Source: Cyanobium sp. PCC 7001
Lineage (GTDB): Bacteria > Cyanobacteriota > Cyanobacteriia > PCC-6307 > Cyanobiaceae
Reading direction: 5' to 3'
Length of the DNA stretch: 64,000 bases
Assembly: GCF_000155635.1 (NCBI RefSeq)
Contig: NZ_DS990556.1
Span: forward strand, 1,789,079-1,853,078
The stretch's first letter is position 1; each line of letters starts with the position of its first letter. Below the pieces are notes generated by a model. It was not told where the DNA came from. It did no database searches and saw only the letters and a list, made by a program, of their open reading frames with translations. This document shows, piece after piece, positions 5,696 to 9,930 of the stretch. A program made the position numbers and the translations under genes.

Positions 5696-7165
5696 ATGGA
5701 CCCGGCCGATGCCGAGGCGAATGCCGTGTGCCGCCGGCTGGCGGGTGAGCTCTTTCCCTGGGATCTCACCCGAGCCCTGGAGCTGGCCCTGCTGAAGACG
5801 TTCTGCCTGCCGTCGATCTCGAGCCTGCTGGAACGGACCGGCGAATTCACCAGCCGGCCCCGCAAGCGCTACGACGACACCGGCCTGATGGTGGCCGAGC
5901 TGCTGCGCTGGGGGCCCGGCAGCGCCGCAGGACAGGCGGTGATCGACCGCATGAACCGCATCCACGGCGCCTACGCGATCGGCCAGCGCGATTTCCTCTA
6001 CGTGCTCTCCACCTTCGTGGCCGAGCCGATCCGCTGGCTGCGGCGCTACGGCTGGCGGCCGCTGAGTGCCCACGAGCAGACCTGCCTGTACCGCTTCTGG
6101 CGCCAGGTGGGGGAGCACATGGGCCTCCAGGACATTCCCGGCAGCCTGGAGGCGCTGCTGACCTTCAATCGCCAGGTGGAGCGCGAGGCGTTCCGCCCCG
6201 CTGCCAGCAACGCCCGCGTGGCCGAGGCCACCCTGGGGATGCTGCTGGCCGACTGGCCCGAGCCGCTGCGGCCCGCCCTGCGAAGCGTGCTGCTGGCGCT
6301 GGTCAGCGCCGAGGTGGGCGGCAGCCTCGGCTGGAGCGCCAGCCCCGGCTGGCTGCAGCGGCTGGTGCTGCAGGCCCTGCGGCTGCGCAGCCGGCTGGCA
6401 CAGCGCTGGCCCCGGCGCCCCGGCGCCACCCGCTTCTATTCCGAACGCCCCACCCCGGGCTACGGCGAGAGCTTCCGCCTGGAGCAGCTGGGCCCGCCGG
6501 CGCTGCTGCCGCGCCTGAACCGGCCCCGCTGGCAGGGCCACCAGCGGCGCATCGGCCTCACGGGCGGCATCGCCAGCGGCAAGAGCACCGCCGGCCGCTG
6601 GCTGGCTGATCAGGCCGGCCTGCCGCTGCTCGACGCCGATCACTACGCCCGCGAGGCCCTGGCGCCCGGCTCGGCCGGGGAGGCCGAGGTGCTGCAGCGC
6701 TACGGGGCCGCGGTGAGACCGGCGGAGGGAACGGCCCAGGGCATCGATCGAGCGGAGCTGGGCCGCCTGGTGTTCCACGATCCAGCCGAGCGGGCCTGGC
6801 TGGAGCAGCTGGTGCATCCGCAGGTGCGCCGTCGCTTCGAGGCCGAACTGCAGCGGCTGGCAGGTGAACCGGCGGTGGTGCTGATGATCCCGCTGCTGTT
6901 CGAGGCCGGCCTGGAGGGCCTCTGCAGCGAGGTGTGGCTGATCGACTGCGACGAACGTCAGCAGTTGCAGCGGCTGATGCAGCGCAACCAGCTCGACGAG
7001 GCCGAGGCCCGCGCCCGTATCAGCGCCCAGTGGCCCCTGCAGCGCAAGCGGCCGCTGGCCGACGTGGTGCTCGACAACCGCAGCGGTGTCGAGGCCCTGG
7101 AGGCCGGCCTGGCCGCCGCGCTGGCGAAGGGGACCGACGGAGACCGGATCGGCACGCCCACCTAG
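5696..7165 (+). CDS. coaE: MpaB-like oxygenase domain fused to dephospho-CoA kinase
   Basis: A 489-residue two-part protein. Residues about 50-275 match the DUF2236/MpaB-type (rubber-oxygenase-like) family by pattern: RKRYDDTGLMVAELL, MNRIHGAY (His93), FLYVLSTFVAEPIRWL, then DIPGSLEALLTFN. Residues about 284-489 are dephospho-CoA kinase, the last step of CoA synthesis: P-loop GGIASGKST with Lys296, LDADHYAREAL, LVHPQVRRRFE, VLMIPLLFEAGLE. The two are joined in one frame by LNRPRWQGHQRR without a stop or restart. CoaE is normally a stand-alone protein of about 200 aa. It lies beside argJ, where coaE usually sits in picocyanobacteria, so the kinase is in its ancestral place and the oxygenase is the added part. 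The oxygenase substrate is unknown. Confidence 0.88.
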   Translation: MDPADAEANAVCRRLAGELFPWDLTRALELALLKTFCLPSISSLLERTGEFTSRPRKRYDDTGLMVAELLRWGPGSAAGQAVIDRMNRIHGAYAIGQRDFLYVLSTFVAEPIRWLRRYGWRPLSAHEQTCLYRFWRQVGEHMGLQDIPGSLEALLTFNRQVEREAFRPAASNARVAEATLGMLLADWPEPLRPALRSVLLALVSAEVGGSLGWSASPGWLQRLVLQALRLRSRLAQRWPRRPGATRFYSERPTPGYGESFRLEQLGPPALLPRLNRPRWQGHQRRIGLTGGIASGKSTAGRWLADQAGLPLLDADHYAREALAPGSAGEAEVLQRYGAAVRPAEGTAQGIDRAELGRLVFHDPAERAWLEQLVHPQVRRRFEAELQRLAGEPAVVLMIPLLFEAGLEGLCSEVWLIDCDERQQLQRLMQRNQLDEAEARARISAQWPLQRKRPLADVVLDNRSGVEALEAGLAAALAKGTDGDRIGTPT

Positions 7166-7196
7166 CGTCGAGGCAACGCCGCCAGCGGCCACCCCC

Positions 7197-8351
7197 ATGC
7201 GCTCCGATCACCCCGGCCTGCCCGTGAGCGGGAGCCTCAGCTGGCCGCTGCGCTCGATCACCAAGTCGTTCACCGTCACGCTGCTGCTCAAGCTCGCGGA
7301 TGAAGGCCGTCTCGATCTCGACGATCCCGTGGGCCGCTACGTGCGTGGGGTGCCGAACGGCGATGCGGTGACCTTGCGCGACCTGGCTGCCATGACCAGC
7401 GGCCTGCCGGACTACACCACTCCCGCCTTCTTCGAGGCCTTTCAAGCCAACCCCCGGCGGATCTTCTCGGCGCGGGAGCTGCTGGCGTTCGCCTGGCGCC
7501 AGCCCCTGCAGGGCCAGCCCGGTGAGGAAGCGGTGTACACGAACGTGAACACGTTGCTGCTGGGGGAGGTGATCCGCGCGGTGACCGGCCGCAGCTTCGA
7601 GCGCAGCCTGCGGCGCCAGGTGCTCAGGCCGCTGGGGTTGCGCCAGACCCTGGTGACGCCGGACCAGCGCCGCTGGCCCAGGCCCCGTCCGGTGGGCTAC
7701 CAGCGGGAGGACGGGCAGCTCACCCCCCAGCCCGGCAACCTCTCGATCTTCCGCGCCGCCGGCGAGATGCTGGCCACCCTGCCGGATCTGCGCCGCTGGG
7801 CCGGCATGCTCGGCCGCGGCCGCCTGCTCAGCCGCTCCACGGCGGCCGAGCGCCGATCCTCTGCCCAGCCGCTGGTCGAGGGGCCGGAGTACGACAGCTA
7901 CGGCCTCGGCCTCGGCAGCCTCGAGGGCTGGTGGGGACACACCGGCGAGGGACTCGGCTTCACCGCCCTGGTGATGTACGAACCCCGCTCCCGGGCGCGG
8001 GCGGCCATCGCCATGAACATCTCCAATCTGCCGGCCGGCCACCCGCCGACGCGGCTGTTCCGGCGGCTCGCCCGCACCCTGAAGCGCGATGGGATCACAG
8101 GCGCATTCCAACGACAGCAGGGCACTGGCGGGCAGGAAGCTCCCCTGCCGGTGAAGCAGCTCGATGCCGCCCTGGAGCAGACCGTGCGGCGGTTCGGCAT
8201 CCCCGGCGTGGCGGCCGGGGTGTGGCTGCCGGGTGGGCGGCGCTGGCGGCGGTTCAGCGGCGAGGCGGTGCTGGGTTCCAGCGGGTCAGGGGTGGAACGG
8301 CAGCGTGCGGGACAGGGGCTGCCCTGGGTGGAGGAGGCCTCGGCGCTCTGA
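7197..8351 (+). CDS. Serine hydrolase of the beta-lactamase/DD-peptidase fold, apparently circularly permuted
   Basis: A 384-residue class C beta-lactamase-like serine hydrolase. Active-site motifs are SxxK at Ser20-Ile-Thr-Lys23, YxN at Tyr114-Thr-Asn116 and HTG at about 248, in normal order. In this family the SxxK motif usually follows 50-70 residues containing the first helix and two strands. Here it is almost at the N-terminus, while residues about 320-355 (LDAALEQTVRRFGIPGVAAG, then a Trp-Leu-Pro turn and RRFSGEA) look like exactly that missing segment. No signal peptide is visible. Upstream codons overlap coaE in another frame and show no family pattern. It could be a functional permutein or a remnant of a tandem duplication. 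The substrate is not predictable. Confidence 0.8.
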   Translation: MRSDHPGLPVSGSLSWPLRSITKSFTVTLLLKLADEGRLDLDDPVGRYVRGVPNGDAVTLRDLAAMTSGLPDYTTPAFFEAFQANPRRIFSARELLAFAWRQPLQGQPGEEAVYTNVNTLLLGEVIRAVTGRSFERSLRRQVLRPLGLRQTLVTPDQRRWPRPRPVGYQREDGQLTPQPGNLSIFRAAGEMLATLPDLRRWAGMLGRGRLLSRSTAAERRSSAQPLVEGPEYDSYGLGLGSLEGWWGHTGEGLGFTALVMYEPRSRARAAIAMNISNLPAGHPPTRLFRRLARTLKRDGITGAFQRQQGTGGQEAPLPVKQLDAALEQTVRRFGIPGVAAGVWLPGGRRWRRFSGEAVLGSSGSGVERQRAGQGLPWVEEASAL

Positions 8352-8391
8352 AGTCAGGCTCGTGCCGTTCAAGAGAGTCGCCGGGCCGGGC

Positions 8392-9930
8392 TCAGCCCTT
8401 GAGCTTCTCGGCCAGGATCCGGTTCGCCAGCTTGGGATCGGCCTTGCCGCCGGTCTTCTTCATCAGCTGCCCCACGAAGAAGCCCTGCAGCTTGGTCTTG
8501 CCGCCGCGGAACGCCTCCACCTCGCCGGGGTGGGCTGCCAGCAGCTCCTCCACGATGGCGGTGATCGCGGCGGGATCGCTGATCATCCCCAGGCCGCGCT
8601 CGGCCACGATCGCCTTGGCGGAGCCGCCTTGCTGCAGCAGTTCCGGCAACAGCTCCTTGGCGATCTTGCCGCTGATGGTGCCGTTCTCGATCAGCTCGAT
8701 CATCTCGGCCAGCTGCTCGGGCCGCAGCGGCAGGTCGGTGTAGGAGAGCCGGTTGGCATTCACATGGGCGGCGATGTCGCCGGTGATCCAGTTGGCGGTG
8801 GCCTTGGCGTCGGCTCCCGCGGCCACCGCCGCCTCGAAGTACTCCGCCATGGGGCGCTCATCGGTGAGCACACGGGCGTCGTAGGCGCTCAGCCCCAGCT
8901 GCTCGGCGTAGCGATGGCGCTTGGCGGCCGGCAGCTCGGGCAGCTCGGCGCGCCAGGCCTCCCGCTGCTGCGGGGTGACCTCGATCGGCCCCAGATCGGG
9001 ATCCGGGAAGTAGCGGTAATCGCTGCTGCCTTCCTTGGAGCGCATGCTCTTGGTGAGCTGCTTGCCCTCATCCCAGAGGCGGGTTTCCTGCACCACCGGT
9101 TCACCGGCCTCGTAGGCCTTGATCTGCCGCTGGATCTCGTAGTCGCAGGCCTTCTGGATCGCCGAGAAGGAGTTCATGTTCTTGATCTCCACCTTCGTGC
9201 CGAAGGGGGCGTCAGGCCCGCGCCGCACGGAGATGTTGACGTCGCAGCGCAGGGAACCTTCCTGCATGTTGCCGTCGCTCACGCCGAGGTAGCGCATGAT
9301 CCGGCGGATCTCGGAGGCATACTCCGCCGCCTCGCGGCCGGTGCGCAGATCGGGTTTGCTCACGATCTCGGCCAGGGCCACCCCGGCGCGGTTGTAGTCC
9401 ACCAGGGAGTGGGTGGAGCCGGCCAGACGGTCGCTGCCGGCATGCACGAGCTTGCCGGCATCCTCCTCCATGTGGAGGCGCTCGATGCCAATGCGCTTGG
9501 TGTAGGTCTCCTTGCCCTTCTCCGCCACCTCCACCTCGATCCAGCCGTCTTCGGCGATCGGCTCGTCGAACTGGGAGATCTGGTAGTTCTTCGGCAGATC
9601 GGGATAGAAGTATTGCTTGCGGTCGAACTTGCTGTGTTCGGCGATGTGCAGATTCAGCGCCATGGCGGCCTTCACCGCGTACTCCAGCACCCGCTGATTG
9701 AGCACCGGCAGGGTGCCGGGCAGGCCGCACACCACCGGGTCGATGTGGGTGTTGGGATCGTCGCCGAAGGCGGTGGACGCCGCGGTGAAGATCTTGCTGG
9801 CGGTGCCGAGCTGCACATGGGTTTCCAGGCCGATCACGGCCTCCCAGGCCGCAGCTCCTGCCTCAGAGCCAGCCCCATGGTGGTCCTGGGGTGTGGCCGG
9901 AGGGGCTGCAGTCGGGGCGGTGCCTGCCAT
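8392..9930 (-). CDS. gatB: Aspartyl/glutamyl-tRNA(Asn/Gln) amidotransferase subunit B
   Basis: Subunit B of GatCAB, which amidates misacylated Glu-tRNA(Gln) or Asp-tRNA(Asn). It has 512 residues. After an Ala/Pro-rich N-terminal extension of about 28 residues the family core begins (WEAVIGLETHVQL), followed by the hallmark LPKNYQISQFDEPI, RLHMEEDAGK, KVEIKNMNSF and KEGSSDYRYFPDPDLGP. The C-terminal YqeY-like tRNA-binding part ends in FFVGQLMKKTGGKADP. Full length with no missing motif. It converges on the serine hydrolase gene. In picocyanobacteria gatB commonly neighbours coaE and thiO, as here with insertions between them. Confidence 0.97.
   Translation of the reverse strand: MAGTAPTAAPPATPQDHHGAGSEAGAAAWEAVIGLETHVQLGTASKIFTAASTAFGDDPNTHIDPVVCGLPGTLPVLNQRVLEYAVKAAMALNLHIAEHSKFDRKQYFYPDLPKNYQISQFDEPIAEDGWIEVEVAEKGKETYTKRIGIERLHMEEDAGKLVHAGSDRLAGSTHSLVDYNRAGVALAEIVSKPDLRTGREAAEYASEIRRIMRYLGVSDGNMQEGSLRCDVNISVRRGPDAPFGTKVEIKNMNSFSAIQKACDYEIQRQIKAYEAGEPVVQETRLWDEGKQLTKSMRSKEGSSDYRYFPDPDLGPIEVTPQQREAWRAELPELPAAKRHRYAEQLGLSAYDARVLTDERPMAEYFEAAVAAGADAKATANWITGDIAAHVNANRLSYTDLPLRPEQLAEMIELIENGTISGKIAKELLPELLQQGGSAKAIVAERGLGMISDPAAITAIVEELLAAHPGEVEAFRGGKTKLQGFFVGQLMKKTGGKADPKLANRILAEKLKG

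Follow-up and report, generated by a model that had tools for sequence, protein, structure and literature searches.

A probable natural circular permutation of a family S12 serine hydrolase in Cyanobium and related cyanobacteria

How can a serine hydrolase keep its fold when the catalytic serine stands only 20 residues from the start of the chain? The question is raised by a gene of Cyanobium sp. PCC 7001 located in the window, that is, the whole stretch of 64,000 nucleotides that was analyzed. The encoded protein matches the family profile PF00144 over residues 7–290 (E 1.1e-56, 192.8 bits for a cut-off of 27), and this match covers profile positions 41–325 only, the first 40 positions being absent. 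The upstream gene stops at position 7165, 31 nucleotides before the ATG, and there is therefore no space upstream for a normal N-terminus. The first-pass annotation had proposed that the C-terminal tail resembles the missing part, making the protein either a natural permutein or the fused remains of two tandem copies. The features of the locus are the following (positions in the window):

5696–7165, forward strand: upstream neighbor, an MpaB/Lcp-like domain fused to dephospho-CoA kinase (CoaE)
7197–8351, forward strand: whole gene of the putative circularly permuted serine hydrolase (384 amino acids, ATG start; peptidase family S12, PF00144)
7218–7253, forward strand: new N-terminus, a loop (LPVSGSLSWPLR; alignment with unpermuted relatives)
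7254–7265, forward strand: SxxK catalytic motif, S20-I-T-K23 (direct sequence; both S20 and K23 unchanged across the three permuted proteins)
7536–7544, forward strand: YxN motif, Y114-T-N116 (direct sequence; invariant in the same three proteins)
7938–7946, forward strand: third motif, H248-T-G250, equivalent to the KTG box (direct sequence; HTG as in Streptomyces R61, by alignment)
8091–8147, forward strand: linker, residues 299–317, between the ancestral C-terminal and N-terminal helices, with no hydrophobic stretch
8148–8276, forward strand: relocated N-terminal segment, residues 318–360, with helix 1 and strands 1 and 2 (HMM versus shuffles, profile columns 25–63)
8277–8348, forward strand: C-terminal extension, residues 361–384, without a family counterpart
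8392–9930, reverse strand: convergent downstream neighbor gatB

The catalytic core is that of the family. An SxxK motif had been noticed near the start of the 384-residue open reading frame, with YxN and HTG following in the usual order, and all of this was confirmed: the SxxK, YxN, and (K/H)TG motifs keep the S12 order and are invariant in the three permuted proteins. In family S12, the serine (here S20) is acylated, the lysine and the tyrosine (K23 and Y114) serve as basic residues, and the HTG strand holds the substrate. As the motifs are conserved, ordinary S12 chemistry is likely in the permuted protein, and S20, K23, Y114, and H248 would form the usual acyl-enzyme machinery. Sequence similarity to solved enzymes of the R61 type is clear (E 1e-25 to 7e-31), and the core fold and the SxxK/YxN/HTG motifs are common to the Streptomyces R61 DD-peptidase (3pte/1hvb), the Bacillus alkaline D-peptidase (4y7p), and the Streptomyces D-stereospecific amidohydrolase (3wwx); these enzymes differ, however, in being secreted and in having the normal topology, with the N-terminal helix and strands first. 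The protein scored 47.7 bits against the class C beta-lactamase NCBIfam equivalog (cut-off 415) and 67.2 bits against that of the D-alanyl-D-alanine carboxypeptidase AmpH (cut-off 266), and thus neither name applies to it.

The segment missing at the start was found at the other end of the chain. The ancestral C-terminal helix (...LFRRLARTLKRDG) is followed by the linker, then by helix 1 (LDAALEQTVRRFG), strand 1 (VAAGVWLPGG), and strand 2 (RWRRFSGEAVL), so that the segment which in S12 enzymes stands ahead of the SxxK helix sits at the C-terminus. Correspondingly, the loop LPVSGSLSWPLR, which ends at S20, is the connection between strand 2 and the SxxK helix in normal relatives, placing the new termini in the loop ahead of the catalytic-serine helix. 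The tail does align with family N-termini, at 22–48 bits against 11–16 bits for the best shuffle. Against HMMs of the family N-terminus, the tails from this genome, from a sister species (G002), and from another genus (G095) scored 37.0, 22.4, and 48.2 bits, respectively, G002 being the weakest, while among 3000 shuffles per tail the highest scores were 13.7, 10.8, and 15.5 bits. With a profile built from more distant relatives only, the scores were 24.3, 16.7, and 37.2 bits versus 9.0, 11.9, and 13.1 bits for the best shuffles. A profile of the N-terminus only was used because comparing rotated and native full-length scores is uninformative: the residues between tail and core break the alignment, HMMER lists the two as distinct stretches, and shuffled-tail controls therefore matched the real protein for the core. 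By tblastn, query residues 297–362 fall immediately upstream of the core in unpermuted actinobacterial relatives, and the tail retains the conserved family residues PG.A.GVW.PG. The supposed likeness of the tail to family N-termini is therefore a true homology, but within narrower limits than the residues 300–384 first suggested: it spans approximately residues 318–360, residues 299–317 being linker and residues 361–384 having no counterpart.

The coverage of the family profile distinguishes between the two readings proposed for the gene. In native order, the protein of this genome covers columns 66–356 and then 25–63, that of G002 columns 65–355 and then 24–65, and that of G095 columns 65–356 and then 15–69, with an overlap between the two stretches of at most five columns in G095. 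Each family segment is thus present essentially once, in swapped order, which argues for circular permutation and not for two overlapping partial copies fused together; as a description of the present protein, fused remains of tandem copies were rejected because the profile is covered essentially once. When the tail was put in front in silico, the PF00144 match widened to profile positions 2–325, and, even with the added linkers, the score went up from 192.8 to 199.2 bits. The permutein reading is supported by the tail scores against shuffles, by the complementary profile coverage, and by the permuted order in three species, and no homologue was found in which this tail coexists with a normal N-terminus. 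Judged by its sequence, the protein is a family relative by descent with a changed segment order and not a standard S12 member. More generally, a domain annotation in which the start of PF00144 is 'missing' can mask a complete enzyme.

The nearest unpermuted relatives found are actinobacterial S12 lipoproteins (loci L028–L035, L056, and L057), for example, from Arthrobacter (L032), Microbacterium (L029), Rhodococcus (L030), and an Acidimicrobiia MAG (L028). Their core is about 48–57% identical to that of the permuted protein, with the WPLRSITK block and the YTN and GH(T/N)G motifs in common, and their N-terminal segment is homologous to its tail. They differ in that they have a signal stretch and lipobox and a normal N-terminus, and end right after the C-terminal helix. 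The linker 299–317, of about 20 residues and low complexity, occupies the place of their signal peptide and lipobox. The unpermuted relatives show a lipobox and a hydrophobic signal stretch ahead of helix 1 (hydrophobic maximum 1.8–2.7), whereas scanning the permuted proteins revealed no hydrophobic stretch anywhere (maximum about 1.0) and no signal peptide or lipobox. Lacking an export signal, the permuted enzyme most probably resides in the cytoplasm.

By its four psbA copies above the curated cut-off, the genome of the window is cyanobacterial, its family probably being the picocyanobacterial one. The gene is rare. It is present in 2 of the 13 genomes of the genus (this genome and G002) and in 3 of 400 genomes of the family, the third carrier being G095; another search, over 399 genomes sampled from the order, recovered these three and no others. 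Overall identity to the protein of this genome is 79% for G002 and 59% for G095, and the permuted order is found in all three orthologues. The three loci also have the order coaE-hydrolase-gatB in common: the hydrolase lies directly between the two genes in this genome, one extra gene precedes gatB in G002, and extra genes are found on both sides in G095. In sister genomes, the coaE-gatB interval is empty or holds other genes, and no credible match to a hydrolase remnant was detected in it. No permuted relatives were found in viral contigs, in plasmids, in the class, or in the phylum to which one of the actinobacterial relatives belongs; where phage proteins matched, as did mycobacteriophage minor tail proteins, they did so over the core part only. 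In the tree, the three permuted proteins form one clade (support 97/97) that joins the unpermuted actinobacterial proteins (97/96), apart from the cyanobacterial paralogues. This topology fits a gene transfer between Actinomycetota and cyanobacteria, which might have occurred in either direction, with the permutation before or after it.

The best explanation, to which we give a probability of roughly 0.85, is a functional S12 hydrolase of the R61 DD-peptidase or D-stereospecific hydrolase type that was circularly permuted once, ancestrally. The event would have taken place in the ancestor of these cyanobacteria or in the lineage of a gene donor, moving the helix 1-strand 1-strand 2 segment from the N-terminus to the C-terminus, where the linker of about 20 residues would tie it to the old C-terminal helix. 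Permutation by duplication is the usual route for permuted proteins, and a tandem duplication, an in-frame fusion, and a trimming at both ends might have given rise to this gene; two tandem copies are thus possible as the route of origin, and a search of the sister genomes for a tandem unpermuted copy that would document such an intermediate found none. Known substrates of the closest relatives with solved structures are D-amino-acid peptides, amides, and cell-wall peptides, and the permuted protein may be a cytoplasmic enzyme acting on small D-amino-acid peptides, amides, or esters, not on the cell wall.

Structure models were consistent with an S12 core. The core model matched 3wwx (Z 19.0), 4y7p (18.4), and R61 (3pte/1hvb, 18.3), with an rmsd of 3.5–3.8 Å over 263–268 residues, starting from model residue 19 and R61 residue 61. 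The AlphaFold2 prediction of the permuted chain was weak (mean pLDDT 58.4, pTM 0.68; tail blocks pLDDT 27–58), the input being 13 alignment rows with the tail rows as separate pieces and with G002 and G095 left out. The low-confidence model of the tail contains a helix (319–333) and a strand (339–343) that correspond to H14–30 and E35–42 in the model of the unpermuted Arthrobacter protein L032 (pLDDT 72.0). The latter aligns with R61 end to end (1hvb Z 29.3, 3pte Z 29.2), and its first elements, H14–30, E35–42, and E46–56, are by sequence those carried by the tail. In the permuted protein, the tail would pack where this segment lies in normal members, next to the C-terminal helix and along the sheet edge, restoring the ordinary fold. 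It could instead complete a neighboring subunit, in an obligate domain-swapped oligomer of permuted chains: the long low-complexity linker could reach that far, and the model positions the tail poorly. We consider this arrangement unlikely, as some 20 residues are also enough within one chain, and permutants of TEM-1 use a tripeptide (PMC3334891).

Selection on the gene bears on whether it still encodes a working enzyme. Between this genome and G002, dN/dS (NG86) was 0.28 for the whole gene and 0.18 for the core, and fairly high in the tail (0.56, residues 318–384). The tail evolves faster than the core, though not to a greater degree than its counterpart in normal relatives does: the tail/core identity ratio was 0.67–0.89 in permuted pairs and 0.36–0.97 in unpermuted pairs, indicating that the tail is no more relaxed than a normal N-terminal segment and arguing against both a pseudogene and an assembly error. 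A degenerate gene, made of an N-terminally truncated hydrolase and a chance fragment of a second copy, and decaying or unexpressed, would account for the missing signal peptide and for the faster evolution of the tail. It is nevertheless very improbable: three species from two genera retain an open frame and the catalytic motifs, dN/dS is low in the core, the tail/core ratio is like that of normal relatives, and the tail keeps the PG.A.GVW.PG residues.

The tail could also be an unrelated extension whose likeness to the N-terminal segment is fortuitous, a thought prompted by the low score of the G002 tail alone (just 22 bits). This was refuted by the shuffle controls and the profile coverage: none of the 3000 shuffles per tail came near the real score, the aligned residues are the conserved ones of the family, and the tail supplies the missing profile columns, leaving chance a negligible probability. 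Least probable by far is an assembly artefact swapping two gene halves, for which rarity alone speaks (3/400 genomes of the family) and which is refuted by three separately assembled genomes with 59–79% identity and differing intervening genes.

Permutants of this fold were known from the laboratory. In a TEM-1 permutant library, the old ends were joined by a tripeptide, and active permutants had their new ends near the old termini at high ampicillin and at more varied sites at low ampicillin (PMC3334891); 1ALQ CP254 is likewise an engineered serine beta-lactamase permutant (PMC2395249). These proteins have the same overall fold as the permuted hydrolase and show that the original ends can be closed and others created elsewhere. 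They differ in being man-made and of class A, and in their cut sites: 1ALQ is cut at residue 254, and the omega loop is the site of permutation in the two TEM-1 variants with shifted specificity (PMC3334891), in neither case before the SxxK helix. The cpRAS GTPases offer a similarly sporadic natural permutation of a common fold, although theirs is an unrelated one (PMC2430557). The open-access literature searched yielded no natural permutant of the serine beta-lactamase/DD-peptidase fold. More tentatively, and with the odds slightly against the whole of this statement, the protein could be the first natural permutant of the fold: an active enzyme with its cut immediately ahead of the catalytic-serine helix, in which the rearrangement exchanged lipoprotein export for a cytoplasmic location and a new role.

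The circular permutation, our preferred reading, adds a natural and conserved example to those made in the laboratory. With the permuted order kept in three species, the fold appears to have been rewired by nature without breaking, and a cut site beside the catalytic-serine helix was evidently tolerated by evolution, which bears on whether folding order is constrained in this enzyme class. Set beside its close normal relatives, the permutant allows a direct comparison of segment order, export, and activity.

A few further observations were made on the sequences around this gene. Within the C-terminal extension (residues 361–384), the pattern GSG..RQRAG..LPWV recurs in G002 only; G095 carries in its place a long Gly/Asp-rich extension of other sequence. 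The coaE-gatB interval (7166–8391 in the window; loci L060–L068, L040, and L041) is a variable slot: three genomes have the permuted hydrolase there, G005 and G095 a 2OG-Fe(II) oxygenase, G004 and G007 other small genes, and in G009 it is nearly empty. In the upstream gene (5696–7165, forward strand), the MpaB/Lcp oxygenase-like domain (PF09995, E 2e-12) lies in frame at the N-terminus of CoaE (PF01121, residues 286–465); six further genomes of the genus gave nearly full-length matches to this fusion, and two matched the CoaE part only. Finally, a normal-order S12 hydrolase of another subgroup in G012 (L004, 1504–2478, reverse strand) contains an in-frame TGA, whereas the frame is uninterrupted in near-identical relatives from G132 and G212.
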